DNA of 40,876 bases. Origin: Candidatus Dormiibacterota bacterium (GTDB taxonomy: Bacteria > Chloroflexota > Dormibacteria > Aeolococcales > Aeolococcaceae). The position numbers and the translations under genes were made by a program. The DNA lies in assembly GCA_003170875.1 (NCBI GenBank), contig PMYJ01000035.1:1-40876 (forward strand). The letters are read 5' to 3'. The notes under the pieces were generated by a model. The model worked only from the letters and a program-made list of their open reading frames with translations, was not told where the DNA came from and did not search any database. Within the stretch, counting starts at the first letter, position 1. The number at the start of each line of letters is the position of its first letter. Of the stretch, positions 18,946 to 39,894 are shown in pieces.

Positions 18946-18985
18946 GTGGAATAATCCGCGTTTGTTCCTCTATCAGGAGGCGAGT

Positions 18986-19804
18986 ATGGAGCCACTCCGC
19001 CGACGCATCCCCGCGGATCGCCAGCGAGTTATCGCGTCAATCGTTCGGCAGAGCGGCAGCGTACGGGGCAGTGAGCTGGTCGACATCCTTGGCGTCACGG
19101 ACGAGACGATCAGGCGAGATCTGCTCCAGCTCGCCCTGAGCGGCGCGGTGCGACGGTCTCGAGGCGGAGCGGTCGCCATCAGCCCACTGGATGAGTCGAA
19201 CACGGATCTCCGCCTCCGTGAGCACGCCGCCGAGAAGATCGCAATCGGAACTCGGGCGGCTGACCTCGTCGAGGATGGCAGCCGGATCATCCTGGATTCG
19301 GGGACCACCACCCTTTGCCTCGCGCGAGCTCTGCGCCAGAAGCGGAACCTGACCGTGGTCACCACCGCGGTTACGCACGCCGTCGAGTTGATGGGGATCG
19401 CTGGAGCCACGGTTGTCATGACCGGCGGAGTGATCCGGCCCGCAACGTACGGGGCGAGCGGGCAGCTCGCTGTTGCAACGATTCGCGAAGTGCACGTCGA
19501 GCAGGTGTTTCTTGCGATTCACAGCGTTTCGGTCAAGGGCGGGCTCACCTACCCGAGCTTCGAGGAGGTCGAGGTGAAGCGCGCCATGATCGGTGCCGCC
19601 AGACGAGTGATCCTCCTGGCCGACCATTCGAAATTCGGCCGCGAGGCCTTCGTCAAGGTCGCGCCGATGCTTGCCGTCCATACCATCGTCACCACCCCTG
19701 GAATCGATCCCGCCGAGGCAGACGCGATACGCGAGCTCGGCATCGAGCTGATCGTGGCGCCCCTAGCAATCGAGTCGACCGATGCATCGTCGGTGACAAC
19801 CTGA
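18986..19804 (+). CDS. DeoR/GlpR family transcriptional regulator
   Basis: RRRIPADRQRVIASIVRQSGSVRGSELVDILGVTDETIRRDLLQLALSGAVRRSRGGAV, DSGTTTLCLARAL; AGGAGG upstream of ATG. Confidence 0.93.
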   Translation: MEPLRRRIPADRQRVIASIVRQSGSVRGSELVDILGVTDETIRRDLLQLALSGAVRRSRGGAVAISPLDESNTDLRLREHAAEKIAIGTRAADLVEDGSRIILDSGTTTLCLARALRQKRNLTVVTTAVTHAVELMGIAGATVVMTGGVIRPATYGASGQLAVATIREVHVEQVFLAIHSVSVKGGLTYPSFEEVEVKRAMIGAARRVILLADHSKFGREAFVKVAPMLAVHTIVTTPGIDPAEADAIRELGIELIVAPLAIESTDASSVTT

Positions 19805-19921
19805 CTGAATCTCATGGAAGACCTTGGTGCCAACCATGTCAACGACGGTCGTAATCCGGAAGTTCGAAGCGTGCCGACGTTCGTGACAGATCCCCCAGAC
19901 CAGCGCGCCGTCCGGCGACCC

Positions 19922-20689
19922 ATGCGTCCTCTCATCGGCACCAGTTGGAAGATGCATCTGACCGCGAGCCAGGCGGTCCAATACTTGCAAACACTGCGAC
20001 CACTCGTTGCGGATCTCACAGATCGAGACCTCTTCGTTCTGCCGGCATATCCCGCGATCCCGGTCGCTCGAGAGCAACTGGATGGGAGCAACATCGCCTG
20101 GGGCGCTCAGGACGTCCACCCGGAAGACTGGGGTGCGCACACCGGTGATGTGTCCGCGCCGATGCTAGCGGACTTGGGCTGTCGCTACGTCGAGGTCGGG
20201 CACTCTGAGCGTCGGCGCGAACACGGCGAGACGACGGACGTGGTCGCACGAAAGATCGCCGCCGTCGCCCGCTGGGGTATGACGCCGATCCTCAGCATCG
20301 GCGATCAGCATCGTCACGGTCCCCAGGCTGCTCTAGCGGAGTTGATGCCGAGCCTCGAGCGCTTGCTGGCCGGCCTCCCGCGAGAATCTCTGGGCGATCT
20401 GGTCATCGCGTACGAGCCAGCTTGGGCGATCGGCGAAGGCGCCGCACCAGCCTCACCGGAGGAAGTCGGGGCCGTGCTTCGCGAGCTCCGCGCTTCGCCG
20501 CTCTTGAAAGGGGTCGAAGCATCTGGCGTTCGCCTGATCTACGGCGGCAGTGTCGACCAATCGATAGCCGAGGAGATGCTCAGCCAGCCGTGCGTCGACG
20601 GCCTGTTCATCGGACGGCAGGGACTTGATCCTTACACCTTCGCTGCACTGGCACGTACCCCCTGTTGTATGTCACACAGTGAGCCCTGA
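19922..20689 (+). CDS. Triosephosphate isomerase-family protein, EryH/LerI (tetrulose-phosphate isomerase)-like
   Basis: N-terminus IGTSWKMHLT (EryH-type, instead of GNWKMN), YVEVGHSERR, AYEPAWAIGEG, IYGGSVDQ. Confidence 0.82.
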   Translation: MRPLIGTSWKMHLTASQAVQYLQTLRPLVADLTDRDLFVLPAYPAIPVAREQLDGSNIAWGAQDVHPEDWGAHTGDVSAPMLADLGCRYVEVGHSERRREHGETTDVVARKIAAVARWGMTPILSIGDQHRHGPQAALAELMPSLERLLAGLPRESLGDLVIAYEPAWAIGEGAAPASPEEVGAVLRELRASPLLKGVEASGVRLIYGGSVDQSIAEEMLSQPCVDGLFIGRQGLDPYTFAALARTPCCMSHSEP

Positions 20690-20743: not shown

Positions 20744-21598
20744 ATGCCTGTCGTACGGACCAAAGCCATCCTCGAGCGCGCTTTCGAGGAGCGCTACGGA
20801 GTTGCCGCGATCAACGTGGTGGACGAACTGACCATGGAGGCGGTCCTGGCGGCCGCTGAAGAGCTGCGCGCGCCAGTCATCGTCCAGACCTCAGTCAAGC
20901 ACGTTGTGATGACCGGGGTTGGGGTCATGTACGCGATGTGGCGTGAGTTGACCAAGACGATCACCGTCCCGGTTGCGCTCCACCTCGACCACTGCCCCGA
21001 CCGTACCTTGATCAGCGAGTGTCTGGCCGCCGGCTGGAGCTCGGTGCTCTTCGACGCCAGCAAGCTGACGGTGGAGGAGAACATGCGCCAGTGCATCGAG
21101 GTGGTCGCCGAGGCGCGCCGCCACGGGGCTGACGTGGAGGGCGAGATCGAGGGCTTCAAGCGGACCGAGGAGATGACCGGCGACGAGGCGGAGCACGTCC
21201 AGTCGCTGAAGACGGTGGTCGAGTTCGTCCAGGCCACCGGGGTCGACGTCTTCGCCCCCGCGATCGGCAACGCCCACGGGGTGTACGCGACCACCCCCCA
21301 CCTGGACAGCCAGCGGGTCACCGACATCGTCGAGGCCACCGGCATCCCGGTCGCCCTCCACGGCGGGACGGGGATGACCCCCGAGCAGTTCAGCGATCTG
21401 ATCAGCCGAGGCTGCGCCAAGGTCAACATCTCGACCGCGCTGAAGATCGCCTTCATGAAATCCGGGTACGAGTACATGAGCGCGCATCCCGGGGAGTACG
21501 ATCCGCCGGCGATCTTCAAGGCCCAGCGGGGCGCGGTTATGGACATGGCCCGGCACCACATCCGCCTCTTCGGGAGCGAAGGGAAGGCGTGGGCGTGA
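20744..21598 (+). CDS. Class II fructose-bisphosphate/ketose-phosphate aldolase
   Basis: VPVALHLDHCPDRTLISECLAAGWSSVLFDASKL, AIGNAHGVY, VALHGGTGMTPEQFSDLISRGCAKVNIST. Confidence 0.92.
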   Translation: MPVVRTKAILERAFEERYGVAAINVVDELTMEAVLAAAEELRAPVIVQTSVKHVVMTGVGVMYAMWRELTKTITVPVALHLDHCPDRTLISECLAAGWSSVLFDASKLTVEENMRQCIEVVAEARRHGADVEGEIEGFKRTEEMTGDEAEHVQSLKTVVEFVQATGVDVFAPAIGNAHGVYATTPHLDSQRVTDIVEATGIPVALHGGTGMTPEQFSDLISRGCAKVNISTALKIAFMKSGYEYMSAHPGEYDPPAIFKAQRGAVMDMARHHIRLFGSEGKAWA

Positions 21599-22392
21599 GC
21601 GCCATCATCTTCGACTGCGACGGCGTGCTTGCGGACACCGAGCGGTACGGCCATCTGCCCGCTTTCAACCAGACCTTCCGGGAGGTGGGGGTGCCCCTGG
21701 AGTGGTCGGAGGAGGAGTACGGCCGCAAGCTCCAGATCGCGGGTGGCAAGGAGCGGATGGCCAGCGAGCTCACCCCCGAATTCAGCCGCGCCCACGGCCT
21801 GCCGGAGGATCCCGACGGCAGGGCTGCGCTGCTCGCCTCCTGGCACCGGCGCAAGACCCAGATCTACACCGAGATGGTGACCGCTGGGAAGCTGCCCCCG
21901 CGGCCCGGGATCCGGCGGATCATCGCCGCGGCGCAGGACGCGGGGTGGAAGCTGGCGGTGGCCTCGACCTCGGCGGAGCCTTCGGTGCGGGCGATCCTGG
22001 AGCGCGCCGCCGGCCCGGCGCGCGCGGCACGCTTCGACGTGGTTCTGGCCGGGGACTGCGTGCCGCACAAGAAGCCGGCACCCGACATCTACCTGCTCGC
22101 CCTGGAGAGGCTCGAGGCTGACCCCACCGACGTGCTCGTCATCGAGGACTCACGCAACGGCCTCGAGGCGGCCCACGCTGCGGGTCTACGCTCTCTCATC
22201 ACGGTGAACGGCTACACCGAGCACGAGGACTTCTCTGCGGCCGACCTGGTCGTCTCGTCGCTGGGTGACCCCGGTGGCGAGGAGACAGTGGTCATCGCCA
22301 ATCGGAGCCCGGCGAGGCCGCGAGCGTTCATCACACTCGCCGACCTGAAGAATCTCGTCAAGCCGGGTGAAGTTCAGGGTCAAGCCGGATAG
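21595..22392 (+). CDS. HAD family hydrolase (CbbY/phosphoglycolate-phosphatase-like)
   Basis: IIFDCDGVLADTERYGH, VASTSAEPSV, HKKPAPDIYLLAL, VIEDSRNGLEAAHAAG; GTGA overlap with the aldolase. Confidence 0.9.
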   Translation: MSAIIFDCDGVLADTERYGHLPAFNQTFREVGVPLEWSEEEYGRKLQIAGGKERMASELTPEFSRAHGLPEDPDGRAALLASWHRRKTQIYTEMVTAGKLPPRPGIRRIIAAAQDAGWKLAVASTSAEPSVRAILERAAGPARAARFDVVLAGDCVPHKKPAPDIYLLALERLEADPTDVLVIEDSRNGLEAAHAAGLRSLITVNGYTEHEDFSAADLVVSSLGDPGGEETVVIANRSPARPRAFITLADLKNLVKPGEVQGQAG

Positions 22393-22510: not shown

Positions 22511-23830
22511 TCAGGCCGTCATCAGGTCGTAATTGCCCTTGACCCCGGTTTCGGAGATGCCCCAGGTGGCGAGCGCCGCCGCCAGCTCGGGCTCCTGGAC
22601 CCGGTCGCTGCGGATGAAGCCGTCGTCGGCCATCACCGCGTCGATTGCCTGGCGCAGGGCGCGTGTGCCCGCCGTCGGCCCGAGCGGGTGGCCATGGACG
22701 GCGCCGCCGGCGCCGACGATGAAGTCACGCCCCATGTCGTTGAAGAGCAGGGGCAGCATGCCCGGGTGGACGCCGCCGCCCGGCATCGGCCAGGAGCGCT
22801 TGATGTCGTGGAAGCGCCCGGTGAGGGCCTGGGCGATGCGCAGGTGCTTGGCGGGCAGCAAGGACAACTTGCCGTACGGGCTGGGATAGACCACCAGGTC
22901 GGCTCCGGCCAGGCGGGGCAGCTTGCCGAGGATGAGGTGAGAGCTCACCCCCGACCAGGGATCGCCGTATATGGCCCCGGAGAAGTTGAGGTGGGCCAGC
23001 AGCGGGACGTTGATGGCGGGATCGTCGGCCAGCATCGAGAGGGCTGAGATGCCAACCACGAGGTAGCTGACCATCAGCGCCGAGGCGCCGGCCTCCACGG
23101 CGCGGTGGGCATTCTCCACCAGCCGGTCGGGCCGGTCGGTGATGTTGACGAAGTAGAGGGTGCGGTGGCCGGTCTGCTCGAAGGCCGCCTTGGCCGCCGC
23201 CTCGTGCTCGCGGACCCGATCCAGGAAGTGGCTCCAGGGATGGGAGACCACAATCTCGTCGTCCTTGACCCCGTCCGCGCCGCCCAGGGCGGCCTGGTAG
23301 AAGGCTTCGGCACTCTGCTTGGGGGTGAGACCGATCGAGGGCTTGACCATGACCACCAGCAGCGGACGGTCGGGCACGCCGAGCAGCTCGCGCATTCCCG
23401 CAATGCCGAATTTGGGCCCCGCGAAATCGTTGGTGTAGGCCCGCGGGAAGGCGAGGTCGAGCAGCTTGAGCCGGCCCGCCGAGGCGATTTCACCGTAGAC
23501 CATGGTCAGCATCAGCGGGATCTGCGGTCCCACGTTGTGGACCGGGTAGGCGATCTGCAGGACCCAATCCCGGGTGCGCAGGTCGTGGGGGAGGCTGAAC
23601 TCGTGGTCCGGTACCTCCCAGATGGAGATGATCTTGCCCACGTGGCGCTCGCGCACCTCGGAGGTCTCGCCTTCCAGGCTGACCCAGGTCCCACCCGACT
23701 GTTGCTCGGAGATTGCCGCAGCCAGCTTGTGGATGTTGGCGGTGGCGCTCGTCTGGTAGAGGTAGGTGGCCAGGATGTGGGTGTCGAGGTCGACCCCCTC
23801 CGGAATCGGAAACGCGATCGGGTCGTACAT
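22511..23830 (-). CDS. RuBisCO-like protein (RuBisCO large-subunit superfamily, form IV-type)
   Basis: EQQSGGTWVSLEG, LLVVMVKPSIGLTPKQSAEAFYQAALGGADGVKDDEIVVSHPW, MPGGGVHPGMLPLLFNDMGRDFIVGAGGAVHGHPLGPTAG. Confidence 0.93.
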   Translation of the reverse strand: MYDPIAFPIPEGVDLDTHILATYLYQTSATANIHKLAAAISEQQSGGTWVSLEGETSEVRERHVGKIISIWEVPDHEFSLPHDLRTRDWVLQIAYPVHNVGPQIPLMLTMVYGEIASAGRLKLLDLAFPRAYTNDFAGPKFGIAGMRELLGVPDRPLLVVMVKPSIGLTPKQSAEAFYQAALGGADGVKDDEIVVSHPWSHFLDRVREHEAAAKAAFEQTGHRTLYFVNITDRPDRLVENAHRAVEAGASALMVSYLVVGISALSMLADDPAINVPLLAHLNFSGAIYGDPWSGVSSHLILGKLPRLAGADLVVYPSPYGKLSLLPAKHLRIAQALTGRFHDIKRSWPMPGGGVHPGMLPLLFNDMGRDFIVGAGGAVHGHPLGPTAGTRALRQAIDAVMADDGFIRSDRVQEPELAAALATWGISETGVKGNYDLMTA

Positions 23831-23902: not shown

Positions 23903-24910
23903 TCAGGCACTCCTCGCCTCCGCCTGCAGGGATGGCGGTTCGGCCACGGCGACGTCGAGGATGCGGCGGGCCGTGGTCTCGTCGACGATCAGCACCCCGA
24001 CGACGCCGGTGCGCAGCGCGCCGAGCAGGGTCGGCGCCTTATCGGCACTCTCGCTGGCGGTCACGATCACCATGCCTACGTTGTGCAGCTGGTCCAGGGT
24101 GAGGCCGACGATGCGATCGCTGAACGGGGAGCTGATCACCCGCCCGTCGGCGTCGAAGTAATTGCCCAGGATGTCGCCAACCGCGCCGGCGGAACGCAGC
24201 CGCTGCATCTCGGCCAGCGAGCAGCAGCCGCTCCGCACCATGGTGCAGCCGTCGTCGGTGCCGCCCGCGCCGACCACCGCGATCCGCGCCTCGGCGGCGA
24301 TGCGCAGGGTGTGGGCGACCGCCTCTTGGCGAAGCAGCCGGTCGCGCATCGCCCGGCTCTCCACGAAGGCCGGGGCAAACAGGCTCTCCCAGCGGCCACC
24401 GGCGCGCTCGGCAAGGGCGCGGCAGATGTCGTTGGGGTTGGTCGGTGCGTCCATCCTCGGGGAGCCGCCCATGGCGCTGACGAAGGTGCAGTCGAGCGGG
24501 CGCGCCGTCCGGAAGGCGGCGGCCAGCTCGCCAGTGTTGCGGCCCATGCCCACAGCGATCACCCCGCCCCGGCGGATGTGCCGCTCCAGGTAGCCGGCGG
24601 CGGACCTGGCGACGGCGCGCCGCTGGGCCTGGGGATCGGGATCACTGGGGGTCACGATGGCGTCCGCGAGCTGGAAGGTGGTGCGCAGCCGTGGCTCCAG
24701 GGCTGCCGCCGCGGCGGACGGCCCGATGATCCGGATGTCGACCACCCCGTTCTCCCGGGCGCGTCCGAGCAGGCGCTGCACCTTGGGCCGCGAGAAGCCC
24801 AGCTCGCGCCCGATCTCGACCTGGGACTTGCCCTCGATGAAATAGCGGTAGGCGATGCGCACCAGGAGCTGCTGGTCGGTGCGGGAACGCGGGGTCGGCA
24901 GTATCGTCAC
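23903..24910 (-). CDS. SorC/DeoR-type sugar-binding transcriptional regulator
   Basis: VRIAYRYFIEGKSQVEIGRELGFSRPKVQRLLGRARENGVVDIRI; C-terminal sugar-binding domain with VIAVGMGRNTGELA and AVVGAGGTDDGC. Confidence 0.9.
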   Translation of the reverse strand: MTILPTPRSRTDQQLLVRIAYRYFIEGKSQVEIGRELGFSRPKVQRLLGRARENGVVDIRIIGPSAAAAALEPRLRTTFQLADAIVTPSDPDPQAQRRAVARSAAGYLERHIRRGGVIAVGMGRNTGELAAAFRTARPLDCTFVSAMGGSPRMDAPTNPNDICRALAERAGGRWESLFAPAFVESRAMRDRLLRQEAVAHTLRIAAEARIAVVGAGGTDDGCTMVRSGCCSLAEMQRLRSAGAVGDILGNYFDADGRVISSPFSDRIVGLTLDQLHNVGMVIVTASESADKAPTLLGALRTGVVGVLIVDETTARRILDVAVAEPPSLQAEARSA

Positions 24911-25039: not shown

Positions 25040-26158
25040 TCAGCCGGCGCTGGCGGGCCCTGCTGGGAGGGCGGCCACCCGGGCCGCGAAGGCGGAGATC
25101 TCCGCCTCCCCCTGCAGCGCCCCCACCTCCAGCCGGTAGGCGCGCTCCTCACCCGGCGCCAGCCACTGCAGCTCCTTCCTGGCCTGGGCGTCGAAGCGCC
25201 CCGCGTCACGGTTGGTGGTGGGCTCGAGGGCGACCCCATAGGTGCCCTCACCGAGCATCCGCCAGAGCGTGTGGAAGGGCATCGCCCGATGGTCGAAGAG
25301 CTCGTACACGCCCAGGCCGAGGGCATCGTTGACCAGCGCCACCGGAGCGGTGCCATCGGGCTCCGCGTGCACCACGTGCTCGAAGCATTGCTCGGGCCAG
25401 TGCGGTATCGGTGCGCTCATTACCCGGTAGCCGGGGACCAGCCCCGCCGCGTCCACGGGCGGCACCTCCGCAGCAGGGATCAGCAGCCGGGCACCCTCGT
25501 CGAGCACCGGGTATCCGACGTTGACGTGGTACAGCATCATGTGGCTGGTGCTCTCGAAGCCCACGTTGACCACCCGGTCGCTGATGCGCAGCGCCGAGGT
25601 GCCCACGGTGACCTCGATCCGCCGTCGCAGTTCGAGTGCCTCAGCGTAAACCGCCGCCTGGCGGACCACGCCCTCCGCCCAGAGGATGCAGTCATCGCCC
25701 TCCCAGGTCTCGCCGTAACCGAGCAGGCGGGCTGGCAGCATGCCGATGCGGCCGTGCAGCCCGTACTCGACCGCCGGCTGGATGGCCTGGTGGAAATGCT
25801 CCGCGGAGTCCCGGCCCCCGATCAGGGTGTGATCGAGACCGCAGGTGACCACCATGCCGCCGCCCCAGCTGCGCAGCCAGCCCAGGCCCATCGGATCCGA
25901 ATACCACGGAGCCACAACGTCCGCGCTGGAAAGCCAGGTCAGGGATCGCCCACTCAGGGCGCAGCGGCCGATGTCGAACGCACGGTCCACAAGCACGTCG
26001 AACTCGAAACCGCTGCCGCTGCGAAACTCCAGAACCCGCACGCCTCGGGAGATGCCGTCGCCGAGAGTCACGAGGCGCACCCCGGCCACCTGCTCCAGTC
26101 TCCCGACCCGCTTCATCAACGCAGCCCTCGCCAGATCGGACCCGAAAAGCCTGGTCAT
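25040..26158 (-). CDS. DUF4432 / aldose-1-epimerase-like protein
   Basis: GVRVLEFRSGSGFEFDVLVDRAFDIGRCALSGRSLTWLSSADVVAPWY, GGMVVTCGLDHTLIGGRD, VNVGYPVLDEGA. Confidence 0.8.
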   Translation of the reverse strand: MTRLFGSDLARAALMKRVGRLEQVAGVRLVTLGDGISRGVRVLEFRSGSGFEFDVLVDRAFDIGRCALSGRSLTWLSSADVVAPWYSDPMGLGWLRSWGGGMVVTCGLDHTLIGGRDSAEHFHQAIQPAVEYGLHGRIGMLPARLLGYGETWEGDDCILWAEGVVRQAAVYAEALELRRRIEVTVGTSALRISDRVVNVGFESTSHMMLYHVNVGYPVLDEGARLLIPAAEVPPVDAAGLVPGYRVMSAPIPHWPEQCFEHVVHAEPDGTAPVALVNDALGLGVYELFDHRAMPFHTLWRMLGEGTYGVALEPTTNRDAGRFDAQARKELQWLAPGEERAYRLEVGALQGEAEISAFAARVAALPAGPASAG

Positions 26159-26291: not shown

Positions 26292-27341
26292 TCAGCGGGA
26301 CTGGCGGAGCAGGGATTCGTCCGCAGGGCTCAGCCGCTTCGTCACGTTGGCCGCCTGGTGCCAGTATGGATAGAGCAACGTGGGTTGTGAGACCCGGTCG
26401 AGCTCGGCTTGGTCCGCAGGGTCCAGGGCCAGCTCAGCCGCACCCAGGTTGATCTCCAGCTGCGCCAGGTCACGCGCGCCGACCACCACAGAGGTTACCG
26501 CCGGCTTGCCGATGAGATAGGCGAGGGCGACGGCGGCCGGGGACGCGCCGTGGCGCTCGGCAACGTTCACCAGCACCTCGATCACGTCATACACCGGATC
26601 CCAGTCACTGACCGGCGGCTCACCCCAGTCGGTGGTGTGACGGGCGCCCTCCGGCCAGGCTTGACCGCGGCGGTACTTGCCGGACATCAACCCACCCGCC
26701 AGGGGACTCCAGATCAGCAGGCCAAGTCCTTGGTCGATCGCCGCCGGGACCAGCTCGTACTCGGCCTCGCGGCCAATCATCGAGTAGTAGATCTGATGGC
26801 TGACGAACCGCTGGAGCCCCAACCGGTCCGAGATCCCGAGCGCCTTCATCAGGTGCCAGGCCGAGTAGTTGGAGCAGCCAATGTAGCGAACCTTGCCTTG
26901 GTGCACCAGGGTGTCCAGGGCATCCATGGTTTCCTCGGGCGGCGTCTTTCCGTCCCACTGGTGCGCCTGGTAGAGGTCGATGTGGTCGGTCTGGAGCCGC
27001 CGGAGGCTGCGCTCGCAGGCGGCAATGATGTGGTCTCGGGAGAGCCCCTCATCGTTGGGGCCATGCCCGGTCGGAACGCCCACCTTGGTGGCGATCAGGA
27101 TGTCGTCACGTCGTCCCTTCAGCACCTCGCCGACGATCTCCTCGGACCTGCCGTAGGAGTAACAGTCCGCGGTGTCGATCAAGTTCACCCCTGCCGACAG
27201 TGCACGGTCGACGAGCTGTCGAGCCTGATCGACCTCGAGCTCACCCACGCGGCGGTAGCCGCCCTTCCCCCCGAATGTCATGGTTCCAAGCGTCACCGTC
27301 GAAACCAGGATTCCGGAACGCCCGAGTTGGCGGTATTCCAT
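26292..27341 (-). CDS. Aldo/keto reductase
   Basis: MEYRQLGRSGILVSTVTLGTMTFGG, LIDTADCYSYGRSEEIVGEVL, DLYQAHQWDGKTPPEETMDAL, WSPLAGGLMSGKY. Confidence 0.93.
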   Translation of the reverse strand: MEYRQLGRSGILVSTVTLGTMTFGGKGGYRRVGELEVDQARQLVDRALSAGVNLIDTADCYSYGRSEEIVGEVLKGRRDDILIATKVGVPTGHGPNDEGLSRDHIIAACERSLRRLQTDHIDLYQAHQWDGKTPPEETMDALDTLVHQGKVRYIGCSNYSAWHLMKALGISDRLGLQRFVSHQIYYSMIGREAEYELVPAAIDQGLGLLIWSPLAGGLMSGKYRRGQAWPEGARHTTDWGEPPVSDWDPVYDVIEVLVNVAERHGASPAAVALAYLIGKPAVTSVVVGARDLAQLEINLGAAELALDPADQAELDRVSQPTLLYPYWHQAANVTKRLSPADESLLRQSR

Positions 27342-30496: not shown

Positions 30497-31960
30497 GTGT
30501 CGGTGAGCCTCATCGGGATCGACCTCGGCACCAGCGCGATCAAGGTCGCCGCCTACGCGGTGGACGGTACCCTCTTGGCCGAGGCTCGCCAGGCCGTCCC
30601 CGCCCACCGGCCCCAGCCCGGTTACTGGGAGGTCGACGTCGGCGAATCGCTGACCGCCTTCCGCGAGGCGTTGACCACCGTCGCCAACCACCCGAGAGTG
30701 CGCGCCGACCCACCGCGAGCGATCTCCTTCAGCTCGTCTGGAAGGGAGATCTTCCCCACCGCGAGTGACGGCGCACCTCTCGGGCCCTGCCTGATGACGG
30801 CTGACGTCCGCGGCGATGACGTGGCGGCGAGGACGGCTGCCCGGCGCAGCACCGAAGAGTGGTTTCGTCTCGCCGGACACGTGCCCGGGCGGATGGATCC
30901 CGTGAATCGCATTCTCTGGTGGCAGGAGACCAATCGTGAGGCTGTGGCGTCAGCCCGGTGGTTCATGAATTGGCACGACTTCTACGCGCTGCTCCTGAGT
31001 GGCGTTCCCGTCGCCGACGCCAGCGGCGCCGGGGCATGGGCCGTCTACGATCTCAGCTCGAAGACATGGTCGGCAGACCTGGTTGCCGAGGTCGGCCTGG
31101 ATCCGCAGTGGCTCCCGCTCATCCAACCCAGTGCCAGTCCGATTGCACCGGTAACCCCCGCGGCCGCACGGGAATTTGGCCTTCCTGAGGACACTCTGAT
31201 CGTGACCGGGGCCTGGGACTTCTGCGCCGCCGCCCTGGGGACCGGGGCCGTCGACGCCCGCACCGTGGCCCTTGCCTCCGGTTCGTGGCATTCCTTCCTC
31301 CTCCCCGTCCCGTCAGGTTGGAAGGAGGATCTGGTCGACGAGGGGATCGCCGCGATCCCTCACCCCGGTCCCCTCGGCTTTGCACTCGCCAGTTTCGATC
31401 CCAATGGCATGAGCGTCATCGACTGGGCTCGTGACTTGCTCGGGCTCAGCCATCGCGAGCTCGAAGAAGGGCTTAAGGGCTGCGGCCCCGGTCCCGGCCC
31501 GATCTTCGCCGAGCCCACCTTCACCCCACTCCCTCACGTCCCCGCCACGGGCCGTGGCGGGTTGCTCTCGGGTCTGTGTCTGTCCAGCAGCAAGGTGGAC
31601 GTGGTGAGGGCTCTCCTGGAGGGAATCGCCTGCGACTTCTCGCTGGCGCTGGACAGGCTTCACCGTCATGGCTGCTCTCCTCAGGTCATCCGAGCCTCGG
31701 GGGGTGGCGCCGGCTCGGCGTGGTTCATGCAGCTGCACGCCGACCTCACCGGCCTCCCCGTCGAGGTCGTGAGCCAGGGCGAGCCGGGGGCCTTTGGCGC
31801 CGCTCTGATGGCTGGCGTGGGATGCGGCGCGTACTCCGATCTGACGACGGCCATCGACCGCCTGGTGGTCGTGTCCCGCCGCTTCGAGCCGGACCCGGAG
31901 CGCGGCCGGCGCTTCGATCCGATCCGCACCAGGCTGGCCACGGCCGGCATGGGAAGATGA
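30497..31960 (+). CDS. FGGY family carbohydrate kinase
   Basis: LIGIDLGTSAIKVAAYAVDG, VTGAWDFCAAALGTGAVDARTVALASGSWHSF, VIRASGGGAGSAWFMQLHADLTGLPVEV. Confidence 0.9.
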   Translation: MSVSLIGIDLGTSAIKVAAYAVDGTLLAEARQAVPAHRPQPGYWEVDVGESLTAFREALTTVANHPRVRADPPRAISFSSSGREIFPTASDGAPLGPCLMTADVRGDDVAARTAARRSTEEWFRLAGHVPGRMDPVNRILWWQETNREAVASARWFMNWHDFYALLLSGVPVADASGAGAWAVYDLSSKTWSADLVAEVGLDPQWLPLIQPSASPIAPVTPAAAREFGLPEDTLIVTGAWDFCAAALGTGAVDARTVALASGSWHSFLLPVPSGWKEDLVDEGIAAIPHPGPLGFALASFDPNGMSVIDWARDLLGLSHRELEEGLKGCGPGPGPIFAEPTFTPLPHVPATGRGGLLSGLCLSSSKVDVVRALLEGIACDFSLALDRLHRHGCSPQVIRASGGGAGSAWFMQLHADLTGLPVEVVSQGEPGAFGAALMAGVGCGAYSDLTTAIDRLVVVSRRFEPDPERGRRFDPIRTRLATAGMGR

Positions 31961-33054
31961 GAAGAGTGATCCACGCACCCTCGCCGACCGTCGAGATCGA
32001 GACCCAGCGGACCTTCTCAACTCCCGCTCTGGTGGTCGACCTCGACACCTTCGAGCGAAACGTGAGGGCGATGTCCGAGCTGCTCGAGGGCACGGGCAAG
32101 AGCGTCCGCCCCCACGTCAAGACCCATCGCACTCCGGAGCTCGCCAGGCGTCAGCTGGGTGGTTCGGCTCGAGGGGTCACCTGCGCGACCGTCGGCGAGG
32201 CCGAGGTCATGGTCGCGGCGGGGATCACCGACGTGCTGCTGGCCAACGAGCTGGTCGACCCCCTCAAGATGGACCGGCTGGTCGGGCTGGCTCATGAGGC
32301 CGCCGTGACCGTTGCGGCCGATGATCCCGAGCCGGTCACGTCGCTCTCCACTCGAGCGGCGCGGGCCGGAGTGACCGTCGGGGTGCTCATCGACGTGGAC
32401 GTCCTCCTTCATCGCTGCGGCGTCGCCTCGGCGGCGGAGGTGCTGCAGATGGCAGCGGTCATCGACCGATCGCCGGGCCTCCGGCTGGATGGGCTGATGG
32501 GCTATGAAGGCCGTCTGCGCCCTGGCGTCCAGGACCGCCAGGCCAAGATTGGCCGCGCCTACGCCCTGCTGGCGGAAACCCGCGACGCGCTCCTCCGTGC
32601 CGGTTTCGCGGTTGAGAGAGTCTCGGCTGCGGGAACGTCGACGTTGTTGGAGGCCCTGACCGATCCCACCATCACAGAGATCCAAGCCGGTGTCTACGCC
32701 CTGATGGAGCCGGAGTTGCTCGGCATGGGCCTCCCCTTCAGCTGCGCCGCGGCGATCCGCGGCACGGTGATCAGCCGGCACGATGATCGCTTCGTCCTGG
32801 ACATTGGTCGCCGGGTGGTGGGGGTGGAGTATGGCCCGCCGCTCAGCGCCGGCTTCGAGGTGACCAGCATCACCTTGGGGGACGAGCACACCATCGTCAC
32901 CGCCGAGGGGCCGCCACCGGCGCTCGGCGCCGAGCTGGACTTCATTCCCGGCCAGATCCGGACCACCTTCAACCTCCACGATCACGTGTGGGTGAGCCGT
33001 GGCGGCGAGCTGATCGACTGCTGGCCGATCTCGGCGCGGGGCAGCTCACAGTGA
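31957..33054 (+). CDS. Alanine-racemase-fold PLP protein, DSD1/D-threonine aldolase family
   Basis: TPALVVDLDTFERNVRAMSELLEGTGKSVRPHVKTHRTPELARRQL, ITEIQAGVYALMEPEL; ATGA overlap with the kinase gene. Confidence 0.88.
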   Translation: MRRVIHAPSPTVEIETQRTFSTPALVVDLDTFERNVRAMSELLEGTGKSVRPHVKTHRTPELARRQLGGSARGVTCATVGEAEVMVAAGITDVLLANELVDPLKMDRLVGLAHEAAVTVAADDPEPVTSLSTRAARAGVTVGVLIDVDVLLHRCGVASAAEVLQMAAVIDRSPGLRLDGLMGYEGRLRPGVQDRQAKIGRAYALLAETRDALLRAGFAVERVSAAGTSTLLEALTDPTITEIQAGVYALMEPELLGMGLPFSCAAAIRGTVISRHDDRFVLDIGRRVVGVEYGPPLSAGFEVTSITLGDEHTIVTAEGPPPALGAELDFIPGQIRTTFNLHDHVWVSRGGELIDCWPISARGSSQ

Positions 33055-33178
33055 CGGCGGGTGGCGTGGACGCTGTGCTCGTCCGCTCCGCTGGTATGGC
33101 GGGTGGGAGGCTCCCTTTCCGGCCCTACATTGGGTGCCACCCGGATTGCCGCCGCTCGGGAATTCATGGGAGGTCCAG

Positions 33179-34147
33179 ATGAGTGAGCCACAGAGCCCGA
33201 CACCGGGCAGCCTCGTCTCCCACGAGGAGTTCGACCAGATCTTCGAGGCGGTCAAGAACTGGGGCAGGTGGGGGCCCGACGACCAGCTGGGCACCCTGAA
33301 CTACATCACCCCGGAGAGGATCAGCACTGCCGCCGGCCTGGTGAAGTCTGGCCGCCGGGTGTCCATGGCCCTGCCGGTCAACAAGGTGGCCGGCCCCGAC
33401 AACCCCAACCCGGCGGTCCACTTCGTGAGCCAGGGGCATGACGTCGACATCAAGTCGGGCGGGGTGCGCTTCGGCATGGACTACCTGGGCATGGCCTGCC
33501 ATGGCGACTCGCACACTCACGTCGATGCGCTCTGCCACATCTCCTACCGGGGTCTGGTCTACAACGGCCAGCCGGCAGGTGCGGTCCTCACGTCGCAGGG
33601 GGCCACCTCGCTGGACGTGGCCGCCTATTGCCGCGGCGTGGTCGGGCGTGGGGTGCTCCTGGACGTCCCCCGCCATCGCGGAGTCAAGTGGCTGGAGCCG
33701 GGGGAGGCGGTCACCCGGGGGGAGCTCGAGGAGATCGAGCAGGCCGAAGGGGTGCGACTCGGCGAGGGTGACATCCTGGTGTTCCGGACCGGGCACAACC
33801 GGCGCCGCCTGGAGCTCGGTCCCTGGAGCAACGACGCGCCCCCGCGCGGCGAGGGCAAGGCCGGTCTCCATGTCAACACCATCCCCTGGATGCACGAGCG
33901 CCGGATCGCCGCCTTCCTGCCCGACGGCGACGGTGAGGCCATCCCCAGCTCGGTGGAGGGCATCGTCTACCCGATCCATCCACTCCAGATCGTGGCCATG
34001 GGCATGCTGGCCTCCGATAGCCTGGACCTGGAGGAGGTCGCCGCCGCCTGCGCGGAGGAAGGGCGCTTCGAGTTCATGGTGGTCGGCCTTCCCCTGCGTC
34101 TGGGGGGCGGCACCGGCTCGCCTTGGAACCCCATCGCCCTCTTCTAG
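33179..34147 (+). CDS. Cyclase family protein (putative cyclase/kynurenine formamidase-like)
   Basis: WGPDDQLGTLNYITPERISTAAGLVKSGRRVSMALPVN, MACHGDSHTHVDALCHISYRG. Confidence 0.88.
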   Translation: MSEPQSPTPGSLVSHEEFDQIFEAVKNWGRWGPDDQLGTLNYITPERISTAAGLVKSGRRVSMALPVNKVAGPDNPNPAVHFVSQGHDVDIKSGGVRFGMDYLGMACHGDSHTHVDALCHISYRGLVYNGQPAGAVLTSQGATSLDVAAYCRGVVGRGVLLDVPRHRGVKWLEPGEAVTRGELEEIEQAEGVRLGEGDILVFRTGHNRRRLELGPWSNDAPPRGEGKAGLHVNTIPWMHERRIAAFLPDGDGEAIPSSVEGIVYPIHPLQIVAMGMLASDSLDLEEVAAACAEEGRFEFMVVGLPLRLGGGTGSPWNPIALF

Positions 34148-34153
34148 AGCGAC

Positions 34154-35200
34154 ATGGCCGCTGACGAGAACATGACCAACCGGCCCCGGCCGGCGGACGC
34201 AGCCGGCCAGGAGGCGGACGGGGTCGACCGGGGCGCGGTTCGCCGAGCTCGAGACAGGCGGGCAGCTCCTCCGGCTCACGTCCACCTCCGTCCCCGAGCC
34301 GTGGCCGATCTCGTCCCCATCCTGGCCCGACGCTTCCTCGGCGAGCTGGAGCCGGGCTCCCCCATGCCGACGGTGCGGAGCCTGGCGGTCCAGCTCCACT
34401 CCAGCCTGGCCTCGATCCACGTGGCCATCACCCGGCTGGAGGAGGCGGGGGCCATCGAGTTCGAGACCCGCGGTCGGGCCGGCGCCCTCCTGGTGGACCG
34501 CTCGCTGGGCTCGCTGTGGTCGATCGCCGAGGGCGGGCCGCTGGTCGTTGCCATGCCGCTGGCCTCGTCGGAGCGCTACGAGGCGCTCGCCACCGCGCTC
34601 AAGCAGGTGATGACGGAAGCCGGGCTCGACGTCTTCTTCATCTTCGTGCGCGGCTCGCGGCAGCGGCTGCAGGCGATGCACGACGGTCGCTGCCACCTGG
34701 CGGTGATGTCGAGCTTCGCCGCCGGCGAGGTGTGCGGCCCGGATGAGGCGGTGGTGGCCGAGCTTCTGCCTCTCTCCTACAACACCGGGCACCGGGTCTT
34801 CTTCGTGGCCGGCCGGGAACCGGCGGTGCCGCTCCGGGTAATCATCGACCGCTCCTCGGCCGACCAGCAGCTGCTCACTCGCATCGAGTTCGCCGATCCG
34901 CAGGTGCGCCTCGTCCCGGCCATGTACTCTCAGATCGTCCGGCTGCTGGAGACCGGGGCGGCGGACGCGGCGGTGTGGACCGTCGACGAGATGGATGCTC
35001 GGCGCTCGCCGGCGCTCACGGGCCGGCCCATGTCGGAGATGGCGCAGCGGCGGGTCGGCGACCGCGACACCCGGGCCACCCTGGTCGGTGCCGCCGTCGA
35101 CGCCGCGGCGCTCCGCGCCCTGGCCTCGGTGCTCATCCCGGAGCGCGTCGAGGCCATCCAGCACGACGTCATGTCGGGCAGGCTGGTGGCGGAATACTAG
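34154..35200 (+). CDS. YhfZ-like GntR-type transcriptional regulator
   Basis: N-terminal wHTH (GELEPGSPMPTVRSLAVQLHSSLASIHVAITRLEEAGAIEFETRGRAG) followed by a YhfZ-C-like ligand-binding domain. Confidence 0.72.
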   Translation: MAADENMTNRPRPADAAGQEADGVDRGAVRRARDRRAAPPAHVHLRPRAVADLVPILARRFLGELEPGSPMPTVRSLAVQLHSSLASIHVAITRLEEAGAIEFETRGRAGALLVDRSLGSLWSIAEGGPLVVAMPLASSERYEALATALKQVMTEAGLDVFFIFVRGSRQRLQAMHDGRCHLAVMSSFAAGEVCGPDEAVVAELLPLSYNTGHRVFFVAGREPAVPLRVIIDRSSADQQLLTRIEFADPQVRLVPAMYSQIVRLLETGAADAAVWTVDEMDARRSPALTGRPMSEMAQRRVGDRDTRATLVGAAVDAAALRALASVLIPERVEAIQHDVMSGRLVAEY

Positions 35201-35265
35201 CCGTGCCCACGCGGCATCGCCCTGCCCCTGGCCTCCTCCCAGCGCCACGAGGCTCTCGCGTCGTG

Positions 35266-36201
35266 ATGGACGTTGACGTGGCGCTCGTTCCCGCTCAGGC
35301 GGACTCGTGGGGGCCGAGAGTGTGTGTGATGGTCGACGAGCTTCGCGCCAGTTCGACGCTCACCACGCTGCTCGATCTCGGCTGCCCGGGCGTCCTGGTC
35401 ACCGCCAGTCTCAGCGAAGGACGCCGCCTCGCCAGGGAACGCGGCAGCCTGCTCGCCGGAGAGCGCAAGGGCCAAACCCCGCGCGGGTTCGACGCGAACA
35501 ACTCACCGACCCAGCTCCGGGGGATGGGCGTGGGGGGTCGTGAGGTGATCCTCTGCACCACCAATGGAACCGCGGTGCTGAGCCGGTTGCGCCGCATGCC
35601 CTCGGTGCTCGTCGGGTGCCTGCTCAATGCCCGTGCCACCGCGGAGGTGGCCCTCCGCCTGGCCGATCGTCGCCACACAGGGATCGGGATCGTCTGCGCC
35701 GGCCAGCGTGGCCGCTTCGCGCTCGATGACACGGTCGCCTCGGGCCTGATCGTGGAGCACCTGCTCGCCGCCGCCAGCAGGCAGGGTCGGGAGTGCCGCT
35801 TGACCGACGCCGCCCACGCCGCCGTGCGCCTCCGGGCAGCACAGCCGGATGACCTCACGGCACTTCGCGAGTCGGGCAGCGGGCGTCAGCTGGCCGCCCT
35901 GGGGGCTGGTGCCGACATCGAGTTCTGCAGCCGGGCCGACAGCACCGCGACAGTCCCGTTTCTACGGCCCGGGGATGTTCTCACCATCGCTGTCTTCGAG
36001 GATGGCGGTGACGGCGATGGCCCGGCCGGGCGCCTCGCTGGTCGAGGCGCGCCCGGACCGCCGTCGACGGAGGTCCCGCCGGGAGCCGCGGACCGCCGCA
36101 GGCCCGATCCATCTGGGGCGGAGGCCCACTCAGACTCGTCTCAGCCGGGCTCGCGCGGGCCCGTGAGCCCCGGGAGAGCCCGTTACCGGAGGTCCCCATG
36201 A
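35266..36201 (+). CDS. ComB family (2-phosphosulfolactate phosphatase-like)
   Basis: VCVMVDELRASSTLTTLLDLG, LLAGERKGQTPRGFDANNSPTQL, GGREVILCTTNGTAVL; low-complexity C-terminal tail; ATGA overlap with the next gene. Confidence 0.82.
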   Translation: MDVDVALVPAQADSWGPRVCVMVDELRASSTLTTLLDLGCPGVLVTASLSEGRRLARERGSLLAGERKGQTPRGFDANNSPTQLRGMGVGGREVILCTTNGTAVLSRLRRMPSVLVGCLLNARATAEVALRLADRRHTGIGIVCAGQRGRFALDDTVASGLIVEHLLAAASRQGRECRLTDAAHAAVRLRAAQPDDLTALRESGSGRQLAALGAGADIEFCSRADSTATVPFLRPGDVLTIAVFEDGGDGDGPAGRLAGRGAPGPPSTEVPPGAADRRRPDPSGAEAHSDSSQPGSRGPVSPGRARYRRSP

Positions 36202-38600
36202 CCACTCCACCAGACCTGGCGACAGCCGCCCGCAGCGCAGCGGGATCGGCTGCCGACGTGGCTCGGCTGCATGCCGCGGCAGAGCCGGACTTCGCTCGCT
36301 ACGAGGTCCTCAAGGACATTGTCGACGAATGCATCGACCTCTCCCTCAACTATCGGCAAAGCGGTCACCCGGGCGGCTCGCGCTCGAAGGTCCACCTGCT
36401 GCTCGCCCTGCTGCTCTCCGGAGCGATGCGCTGGGACATCAGACGGCCGTGGCTTCGGTTCGCAGATCGCTTCGTGCTCTCCGCCGGACACACGGTGCCC
36501 GTGGTCTACTCCACCCTTGCCGTGCTGAACGAGAGCCTCCGGGCGCGGCACGAGCGGAGCGGCGACCCCCGGTTCGCCTTTCCCGCCGGCGGGCGCCACG
36601 CCCTGACCTGGGAGTGGCTCCTCGAGCTGCGGCGCCGGGGCGGCCTACCCGGCCACCCGGAGATGGCAGGGCGCACCCTTTTCCTCAAGTTCAATACCGG
36701 GCCGTCGGGGCATGGCATGCCACCGGCCGCCGGTGAGGCCCTCGCCCTCAAGCTGGCCGGCGCCGGGGAGGTGAAGGTCTTCGTCGTCGAGGGGGAGGGT
36801 GGGCTGACCGCCGGCGCTGCTCATGAGACCCGGACCTTGGCCTGGGGACTTGGCCTCGGCAACCTCGTCTTCCTGGTCGACTGGAACGACTTCGGCATCG
36901 ATCCCCGCCCGGCCTCGAGCGTGGTGGCGGGTACCCCGGTCGACTGGTTCGCTCCCTACGGCTGGAGGGTCAACGGGACCGAACAAGGCTCGGATTGGGA
37001 GCCGGTGACGCGCGCCGTCCTTGAGGCCGCCTGCGGTGACAACCCGGAGGGGGTGCCCAGCATGGCCTGGTTCCGGACCCGCAAAGGTCGTGGCTATGGC
37101 AAGCAGGACGCCGCCAGCCATGGCAGCCCATGGCCGATGAACTCCGCGGAGTTCTGGGCGACCCGTCACCAGTTCATGGCGCGGTATGGGGTGGAGTACA
37201 AGGGCGTCGATGCCCCGGCGCCCGCGGCTGCGGCGGAGCTGCGCGGGCAGGCTGAAGCCAACCTGCGCGTGGCCATGGATGTCCTCCGCCGGGACGACGC
37301 CCTGGTGGGGTGGCTCTCCGACCGTCTCCTGGCTCTCGCGGACAGCGTGCCGGAACAGATCGACGGCTTTCGCCTGGACGGCACGACCGCTAGGGTCTTC
37401 ACCGACCGGAGGCTCTTTGACGTGCAGAGCTACCCGGCGGGGATGTGGAAGCAGCCGGGGGAGAGGGCACCCAACCGCGCTGCGCTGGGAGCCTGGGGCG
37501 CGTACGTCAACGCGGTCGCCAGGCGGGACTACGGGCGTCCCCTCTTCATCGCCGCCTCGGCCGACCTCGCCGAGTCCACCAACATCGCAGGCTTCGCCCA
37601 CGACTCCGGTGATCTGCCGGGTTCCGGCTGGTACGAGCGGAGTTCCAACCCGCACGGAGCGCTGCTGCCCACCGAGATCACCGAGTTCACCAATGCCGGT
37701 TTGCTGGCCGGCATGGCATCCGTGAATCTGGCGGCGGACCCGTTCACCGGCTACGACGGCTTCTGGGGGGCGTGCTCGACCTACGGGTCGTTCTCGTACC
37801 TCAAGTACGGCCCCATGCGTCTCTTCAGCCAGCTCGCCCAGGACTGCGACCTGCGAGTGGGGAGGCTGCTCTGGATCGCCGGGCATTCGGGCCCCGAGAC
37901 CGCGGAGGACTCGCGGACCCATTTCGGCATCTTCGAGACCGGCGTCACCCAGCTCTTCCCCGAGGGGCAGGTCATCGACCTCCATCCGTGGGAGTACAAC
38001 GAGGTGCCGGTCGTCCTCGCTGCGGCCTTCTCGTCCCAGGTTCCGATCGTCGTCCTGCATCTGACGCGGCCGGCCATCCAGATCCCGGACCGGGTCGCTC
38101 TGGGCATGCCCTCTCACCTGGAGGCGGCGCGGGGGGCATATGTCCTCCGTCCCTTCCGAGACGGCCCGGCGAAGGCGGGCACGGTCTATGTCCGGGGCAC
38201 GATGGCGACCCACAACGTTCTCCAGGTGCTGCCCGAGCTGGACCGGCTGGAGCTCAACGTCAAGGTCGTGGCGGCGATCAGCCCCCAGCTGTTCGCGATC
38301 CAGGACCGGGCTTACCGAGAGAGCGTGGTCGGCCCCGCCGACCGTGTGGACGCCATGGTGGTCACCAACGGCGCGTTCTCCCTCATGCACCACTGGGCCG
38401 GAGGCCCTCTGGTGCGGGAGTACTCGCTGTCCGCCGACTGGGATGACCGCTGGCGGACCGGGGGGACACTCGAGGAGGTCATCGAGGAAGCCCATCTCGA
38501 CCCCGGGCACATCCTCGAGGCGATCGAGCGGTTCGCCGTTGAGCGCTCGAGGCGGCTGGGTGCGCTCCGGGATGACCTCGAGTCCGCGCTTGGTCGCTGA
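36198..38600 (+). CDS. Transketolase-family TPP enzyme (about 800 aa)
   Basis: SLNYRQSGHPGGSRSKVHLLLALLLSGAMRW, GHGMPPAAGEALALKLAG, VEGEGGLTAGAAHETRTLAWGLGLGNLVFLVDWND. Confidence 0.85.
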   Translation: MTTPPDLATAARSAAGSAADVARLHAAAEPDFARYEVLKDIVDECIDLSLNYRQSGHPGGSRSKVHLLLALLLSGAMRWDIRRPWLRFADRFVLSAGHTVPVVYSTLAVLNESLRARHERSGDPRFAFPAGGRHALTWEWLLELRRRGGLPGHPEMAGRTLFLKFNTGPSGHGMPPAAGEALALKLAGAGEVKVFVVEGEGGLTAGAAHETRTLAWGLGLGNLVFLVDWNDFGIDPRPASSVVAGTPVDWFAPYGWRVNGTEQGSDWEPVTRAVLEAACGDNPEGVPSMAWFRTRKGRGYGKQDAASHGSPWPMNSAEFWATRHQFMARYGVEYKGVDAPAPAAAAELRGQAEANLRVAMDVLRRDDALVGWLSDRLLALADSVPEQIDGFRLDGTTARVFTDRRLFDVQSYPAGMWKQPGERAPNRAALGAWGAYVNAVARRDYGRPLFIAASADLAESTNIAGFAHDSGDLPGSGWYERSSNPHGALLPTEITEFTNAGLLAGMASVNLAADPFTGYDGFWGACSTYGSFSYLKYGPMRLFSQLAQDCDLRVGRLLWIAGHSGPETAEDSRTHFGIFETGVTQLFPEGQVIDLHPWEYNEVPVVLAAAFSSQVPIVVLHLTRPAIQIPDRVALGMPSHLEAARGAYVLRPFRDGPAKAGTVYVRGTMATHNVLQVLPELDRLELNVKVVAAISPQLFAIQDRAYRESVVGPADRVDAMVVTNGAFSLMHHWAGGPLVREYSLSADWDDRWRTGGTLEEVIEEAHLDPGHILEAIERFAVERSRRLGALRDDLESALGR

Positions 38601-38688
38601 TCCATGTCAACGCCGAAAGATGAGCCGTGCGTGCTGACCGCGCCGGCCCAGCACGTCCCGATGGATCCGTTCAACTGGAGATGATGAG

Positions 38689-39894
38689 ATGTCGGAGATG
38701 AGATTCGCGGAGCGGATGTCGCGGCTGGGGACCGAGTCGGCGTTCGTGGTGCTGGCCCGCGCCCGCCAGCTCGAGGCCGAAGGACGGGAGATGATCCACC
38801 TGGAGATTGGCGAGCCCGACTTCTCCACCCCGGACAACATCATCGAGGCCGCGGTCCAGGCCCTGCATGCCGGTGCGACGCACTACACGCCGGCGAGCGG
38901 GATCCGGGAGGTGCGCGAAGCGACCGCGCGCCACGTCACCCGTCAGACCGGGAGTCCGACCAGCCCGGAGCAGATCGTGCTCGTCCCGGGGAGCAAGAAC
39001 ATCCTCCATTTCCTCCTCCTCGCCCTGGTAGAACCGGGGGACGAGGTGCTGGTCCCCGACCCCGGCTATCCCATCTACAGCTCCCTGGTCAGCTTCGTCG
39101 GTGCCAAACCGGTTTCGGTGCCCATCCGCGAGGCCAACCAGTTCCGCCTGGACGTCGAGGAGCTGCGCTCCCTGGTGACCGAGCGGACCCGGGTCCTGGT
39201 GGTGAACAGCCCGGCCAACCCGACCGGTGGGGTGCTCACCCGCGAGGACTGCGAGGCGATCGCGACGCTGGCCCAGGAACGCGACCTCTTCGTGCTGAGC
39301 GACGAGATCTACTCGCGGATCGTCTATGACGGCGCCCACGTCTCCCTCTACGGCATCGACGGGATGGCGGAGAGGTGCGTCCTCATGGACGGGCTCTCCA
39401 AGACCTGGGCGATGTGCGGCTGGCGCCTCGGCTTCGGCGCGATGCCGGTGGAGCTCGCCCAGCGGATGGACACGCTGATGATCAACACCTCCTCGTGCGC
39501 GGCCGCCTTCACCCAGCTGGCGGCGATCGAGGCCTTCGAATCGCCGGAGTCGGATGCCGCCGTCGCGGCGATGGTGGCCGAGTTCTCCGCTCGGCGTGAT
39601 CTGATCGTGGACGGCCTCAACGGCATCCCCGGGATCCGCTGCCACAAGCCGTCGGCCACCTTCTACGTCTTCCCCAACGTGGAGGGGACCGGCTGGGACG
39701 AGCGCGACCTCCAGCGAGGGCTCATCGAGGAGGCGGGCGTCGCGGCCCTCTCGGGGACCGCCTTCGGCAGCTGGGGCAGGGGGTACTTGCGCTTCAGCTA
39801 TGCCAACAGCCAGGCCAACCTGCGCAAGGCCGTCGATCGCGTGGCCGCCTTCCTGGCCACGGCGCACGCCCAAGCCGTGAAGCCGAGCAGGTGA
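38689..39894 (+). CDS. PLP-dependent aminotransferase class I/II
   Basis: MIHLEIGEPDFSTPDNI, THYTPASGIREVREA, VVNSPANPTGGVL, LMDGLSKTWAMCGWRLGF. Confidence 0.93.
   Translation: MSEMRFAERMSRLGTESAFVVLARARQLEAEGREMIHLEIGEPDFSTPDNIIEAAVQALHAGATHYTPASGIREVREATARHVTRQTGSPTSPEQIVLVPGSKNILHFLLLALVEPGDEVLVPDPGYPIYSSLVSFVGAKPVSVPIREANQFRLDVEELRSLVTERTRVLVVNSPANPTGGVLTREDCEAIATLAQERDLFVLSDEIYSRIVYDGAHVSLYGIDGMAERCVLMDGLSKTWAMCGWRLGFGAMPVELAQRMDTLMINTSSCAAAFTQLAAIEAFESPESDAAVAAMVAEFSARRDLIVDGLNGIPGIRCHKPSATFYVFPNVEGTGWDERDLQRGLIEEAGVAALSGTAFGSWGRGYLRFSYANSQANLRKAVDRVAAFLATAHAQAVKPSR

Follow-up and report, generated by a model that had tools for sequence, protein, structure and literature searches.

A RuBisCO-like protein of a Candidatus Dormiibacterota bacterium that keeps the metal/carbamate site and loop-6 lysine and lacks the distal-phosphate ligands

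RuBisCO is believed to descend from RuBisCO-like proteins (RLPs; PMC12663927), and the known RLP reactions all go via an enediolate but diverge in the step that follows it (PMC10176493). Which of these later steps, if any, is carried out by the RLP encoded in a contig of a Candidatus Dormiibacterota bacterium (PMYJ01000035.1, positions 1–40,876, referred to here as the window)? An earlier sequence-only reading held that the metal/carbamate site is intact while phosphate-binding and CO2-fixing residues are remodelled, and took this to argue for a decarboxylase, enolase or isomerase acting on a related enediolate.

The interval 22511–23830 is exactly one open reading frame on the minus strand, running from ATG to stop and encoding 439 amino acids; the plus-strand reading contains an internal stop. 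The product matches PF00016 (RuBisCO_large, E = 1.6e-43) and PF02788 (RuBisCO_large_N, E = 3.7e-8), and an AlphaFold2 model calculated from a 38-row family alignment has a pLDDT of 93.2 and a pTM of 0.92. In a Foldseek search with this model, solved structures of MtnW (IV-YkrW) ranked top with TM-scores (target) of 0.90–0.94, followed by the RLPs of Chlorobium and R. palustris and then by form III and form I RuBisCO. The reading frame is real and encodes a RuBisCO fold, far above chance matches.

In RuBisCO, the substrate cannot be enolised without Mg and the carbamate; R295 and H327 are the ligands of the C5 phosphate, and K334 works with E60 on the carboxylate side. MAFFT alignment with a form I large subunit (spinach numbering) showed that the query keeps T65, W66, K175, K201, D203, E204, H294, K334, G380, G381 and G403, and that it carries E60Q, N123E, T173M, K177S, R295L, H298S, H327V, S379G and G404A. 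The carbamate lysine and Mg ligands (KxDE) of RuBisCO forms I–III are present as K189, D191 and E192 in a KDDE motif (residues 189–192, equivalent to K201-D202-D203-E204; 23255–23266, minus strand, as are all residue coordinates below). K163 is equivalent to K175 (23342–23344), loop-6 K334 is retained as K321 (22868–22870), and the C1-phosphate site is kept as T48, W49, G353 and G376. Absent are R295, H327 and K177 of forms I–III: H280, equivalent to H294, is followed by L281 at the R295 position (22988–22993), with V314 at the H327 position (22889–22891) and S165 at the K177 position (23336–23338). Met161 and Ser284 occupy the T173 and H298 positions, G351 (22778–22780) the S379 position, E114 (GAA; 23489–23491) the N123 position and Q43 (CAA; 23702–23704) the E60 position. 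Read from residue types, the C5-phosphate site formed by R295 and H327 is replaced by apolar Leu and Val, with Met for T173.

All motifs quoted in the sequence-only reading (KPSIGL, KDDE, LLAHLNFSGAI, DLVVYPSPYGKL and MPGGGVHPGM) occur in the protein. The alignment bore out its reading of the Lys in VKPSIGL as the first Lys of the KPK-type motif (K175), its intact metal/carbamate triad and its five substitutions (K177 to S165, N123 to E114, R295 to L281, H327 to V314 and S379 to G351), and the loss of the distal ligands R295 and H327 agrees with its remodelled phosphate-binding residues. It had, however, overlooked the retention of K334, which lies in PSPYGK inside one of the quoted motifs, and had not noted that E60, T173 and H298 are changed. 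The assertion that CO2-fixing residues are remodelled holds for E60 and N123 of the query, but the query has K334, K175 and H294 unchanged, and its relatives have kept E60 and N123 as well.

This family was collected by an alignment-based search that yielded 80 loci; a single-protein search of genome contigs and of viral contigs returned no relatives. The closest relative, L036, is 86% identical and comes from a second genome of the genus, while five further genomes of that genus yielded no homologue. Identity is 75% in Chloroflexi GWC2_73_18 (L037/L055), 67% in an Ornatilinea metagenome-assembled genome (MAG; L056) and ~43–52% across some 80 loci from Chloroflexota, Actinomycetota, Bacillota, Caldisericota, Archaeoglobus, Theionarchaea, Bathyarchaeota and Asgard archaea. 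In the tree, the query, L036, L055 and L056 form a group with 100/100 support; this group and a loose Bacillota/Deltaproteobacteria set lie near a large group that holds the members linked to FGGY kinases and the Archaeoglobus sequences. Bona fide MtnW branches separately, together with Firestonebacteria proteins (98/89). Because the split between the rest of the family and MtnW has support of only 86/74 in the careful tree (82 in the wide tree), with two Firestonebacteria members falling with MtnW, monophyly of the family against MtnW is not proven. The Firestonebacteria RLPs L118 and L129 group with MtnW yet keep K334, E60 and N123, where MtnW has Ser, Gly and Lys.

Four Archaeoglobus RLPs (L128, L130, L131 and L134) fall inside the family at ~44–47% identity to the query, although their neighbourhood differs from that of the query's subclade. 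An IV-Aful subgroup, after Archaeoglobus fulgidus, is listed in PMC10173188 following Tabita 2007, and the family members from other Archaeoglobus species suggest that it belongs here; AF1587 of A. fulgidus was reported to be up-regulated on H2/CO2 (PMC3949148). The IV-Photo-type RLP of Thiodictyon (L051) resembles the query in having Glu for N123, Val for H327 and Gly for S379, but has Arg at K334 and Asn at K177 and sits on a very long, separate branch.

Across the 83 aligned proteins (82 relatives and the query), K175, K201, D203, E204, H294, K334, T65, W66, G381 and G403 are invariant, and T173, K177, R295, H298 and H327 are lost in every member. The replacements are shared as well: Cys (77), Ser (4) or Asp (2) at K177, Met, Leu, Pro or Ser at R295, Val, Ile or Leu at H327 and Met at T173 throughout. 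The query fits this pattern, with K334 alongside its residues at R295, K177 and T173. Among the substitutions named earlier, those at K177, R295 and H327 are thus family-wide; Gly at S379 is found in 13 of 83 members (Ser in 69), and Glu at N123 is ruled out as a family trait, Asn standing there in all 82 relatives. The E60 position is Glu in 80 members, Asp in 2 and Gln in the query only. Neither of the query's two private residues is an alignment effect, since its codons differ from those of L036 by two bases at each position (CAA versus GAG at 43; GAA versus AAC at 114). They nonetheless rest on one MAG, and base errors cannot be fully excluded, though AAC to GAA needs two changes. With E60Q and N123E specific to the query, conclusions carried over to it from the family are risky. 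Within this largely uncharacterised RLP family, the query is a divergent member.

The genes around the RLP point to sugar metabolism. Directly upstream on the same strand is a SorC/DeoR-type sugar-binding regulator (23903–24910), assigned from profile matches and probably in one operon with the RLP, preceded by a DUF4432 protein resembling aldose 1-epimerase (Pfam; 3ty1; 25040–26158, minus) and an aldo-keto reductase (profile matches; 26292–27341, minus). Converging on this run are four plus-strand genes: a DeoR-family regulator (18962–19804), a triosephosphate isomerase (TIM) paralogue (19814–20689), a class II fructose-bisphosphate-type aldolase (20744–21598) and a HAD hydrolase similar to beta-phosphoglucomutase (21589–22392). 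This convergent operon may be unrelated to the RLP. An FGGY kinase at 30497–31960 was considered as a partner and rejected: it lies on the opposite strand at a distance of 6.7 kb and is only distantly paralogous (XylB model score 179, versus 341 for an operon kinase). Farther along, 31966–39894 holds a cluster of a BhcC-like PLP enzyme, a cyclase, a YhfZ_C regulator, a ComB-like phosphatase, a transketolase-like protein and an aminotransferase.

Neighbourhoods of the relatives fall into two kinds, counted over 72 loci outside the query's subclade and 11 loci within it (window included). Outside, an FGGY kinase lies on the same strand within 300 bp in 44 of 72 loci and within 2.5 kb in 50; none lies within 2.5 kb in the 11 subclade loci. 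These kinases are xylulokinase-like, with model scores under the cut-off. We found no description of an RLP paired with an FGGY kinase in the open-licence papers searched. Near the pair (loci L058–L134) there is either a saccharopine-dehydrogenase-like gene akin to carboxynorspermidine synthase (22 loci) or a class III aminotransferase akin to glutamate-1-semialdehyde aminomutase (20 loci), never both; the two may replace each other, as both could aminate a carbonyl.

The loci of the query's subclade are instead SorC-regulated and contain sugar-catabolic or Tm-1-like genes. SorC is adjacent in 6 of the 11 loci (5 of 10 relatives) and in 0 of the 72 others, and L122 combines SorC, the RLP and a class II aldolase with a galactitol-type PTS (EIIC-GAT), EI and an alcohol dehydrogenase (ADH). 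UPF0261 and PEP-hydrolase-like genes are present in five subclade loci, and a ComB-like phosphatase accompanies them in two. The RLP genes at L037:13200–18502, L057, L099, L107 and L126 neighbour UPF0261 and PEP_hydrolase-like (TIM-barrel) genes; in the Tm-1L family of plant virus-resistance proteins, these two domains occur as a fusion (PMC5028733). Another contig of the query genome (C87; L140:258–12087) holds two ComB–UPF0261 cassettes, one with PEP_hydrolase (ComB–PEP_hydrolase–UPF0261) and the other with 2-oxoacid dehydrogenase E1-like genes. Taken together, the FGGY kinase, SorC, PTS, ADH and class II aldolase genes beside the relatives support a sugar-phosphate substrate. The query's neighbourhood and residue pattern match no characterised RLP among those tested.

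Based on these data, we propose a plausible mechanism. First, Mg2+ would be bound through carbamylated K189 (K201), and a ketose (or diketose) with a single phosphate at C1 would be deprotonated to give the Mg-bound enediolate. Because the R295/H327 site is apolar (Leu and Val, with Met for T173), the substrate should carry no phosphate at its distal end, which is probably apolar or deoxy. The enediolate of the query would then most likely be re-protonated; this isomerase/enolase step would belong to a sugar-catabolic locus under SorC control, and the product would feed the aldolase/isomerase set. Such a fate is the simplest one and is consistent with the aldolase/isomerase neighbours; we place it first for the query since neither E60 nor N123 is conserved there. 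We give about an even chance to the query being a non-carboxylating Mg-carbamate enediolate enzyme acting on a monophosphorylated ketose, most likely as an isomerase or enolase. Enediolate chemistry on another substrate, as proposed from the sequence at the outset, is the right frame, but decarboxylase, enolase and isomerase are not separable by sequence.

The strongest alternative starts from the loop-6 lysine. K334 is replaced (by Ser, Arg, Thr, Pro or Ala) in MtnW, the IV-Photo type and the other Chloroflexota RLPs aligned, and kept in OiaX, in RLPs linked to four-carbon-acid-sugar kinases and in carboxylases; its invariance here, against Ser or Arg in MtnW and the IV-Photo type, therefore favours C–C/CO2 chemistry over simple re-protonation at the level of the family. 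The family could accordingly consist of decarboxylases or transcarboxylase/hydrolases like OiaX/OiaT (3-oxo-isoapionate-4-phosphate decarboxylase/transcarboxylase), activities that have been reported for RLPs (PMC6302742), whose substrate would be a mono-phosphorylated beta-keto sugar acid; in that case the query would hand a tetrulose or pentulose 1-phosphate to the nearby TIM paralogue. That paralogue has GTSWKM, with Ser for the canonical NWKM Asn, and the GLFIGR loop, both as in the L-erythrulose-1-phosphate isomerase (LerI) 11ef, and the genome's other TIM is canonical and lies beside apparent PGK and GAPDH genes. A Rhizobium OiaX operon also includes a TIM (OiaX–kinase–TIM–RpiB), and OiaX keeps K334, K175, H294 and the metal triad, as the query does. 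The TIM link is not conserved, however, the TIM/aldolase operon being absent beside the RLP relatives examined. OiaX retains R295, which the query's family lacks, has Gly at N123, and forms a separate, fully supported branch. Its partner is a DUF1537 kinase, not the FGGY kinase of the query's family, and Pfam scans of the window proteins found no DUF1537 four-carbon acid sugar kinase. The query scores 178.7 with the OiaX model against a cut-off of 700, so OiaX itself is rejected as its identity, and we regard the wider decarboxylase or transcarboxylase reading as possible though on the unlikely side.

A fuller version of CO2-linked chemistry would have the FGGY kinase supply a ketose with one phosphate and an apolar distal end, which the family would carboxylate, decarboxylate or transcarboxylate; the product would be aminated by the saccharopine-dehydrogenase-like enzyme or the class III aminotransferase, and the query would be a divergent copy in which amide and carboxylate are exchanged at E60 and N123. 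As a whole, we hold this scheme to be unlikely.

Loss or change of the family's ancestral reaction in the query, by degeneration or neofunctionalisation through E60Q, N123E, D282N and N255S, would account for a protein that departs from the family at five of 74 near-invariant columns, more than any other member (at most three elsewhere), with several of the changes next to the active site, and for a terminal branch ~2.7 times that of L036. Yet the reading frame is intact, the catalytic Lys, Asp, Glu and His residues and K334 are kept, and a dN/dS of ~0.11 between the query and L036 indicates purifying selection on the RLP; the single MAG again leaves room for base errors. We consider this distinctly unlikely.

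MtnW, the 2,3-diketo-5-methylthiopentyl-1-phosphate (DK-MTP-1-P) enolase of methionine salvage, is nearest to the query in sequence (35–40% identity) and fold, and the two share an apolar distal pocket and the absence of R295, H327 and K177. They differ at other positions: Lys98 is reportedly the general base of MtnW (work attributed to Imker, 2007), and its position, equivalent to N123, is Glu114 in the query and Asn in the relatives, while MtnW has Ser where the query has K334. The query also misses both curated MtnW cut-offs (373.2 versus 409; 337.5 versus 513.6), and there are no methionine-salvage (mtn) genes among the window proteins scanned, whereas methionine-salvage neighbours are present for L047 and L145; with bona fide MtnW on its own branch, this identity is very improbable. 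A genuine RuBP carboxylase, for which the presence of K175, K201, D203, E204, H294 and K334 would speak, is almost certainly wrong, because the distal-phosphate ligands R295 and H327 are gone, K177, T173 and H298 are lost along with them in all 83 members, and the NCBIfam form III RuBisCO score is 227 against a cut-off of 497.

Few RLPs have a known reaction. In this family of anaerobic bacteria, Archaeoglobus and Asgard archaea, E60, N123 and K334 are kept without a distal-phosphate site, so that CO2-handling residues are separated from RuBP-binding residues, and the conserved FGGY-kinase operon offers a concrete route to the substrate. The change of the query at two otherwise invariant positions provides a natural test of their role.
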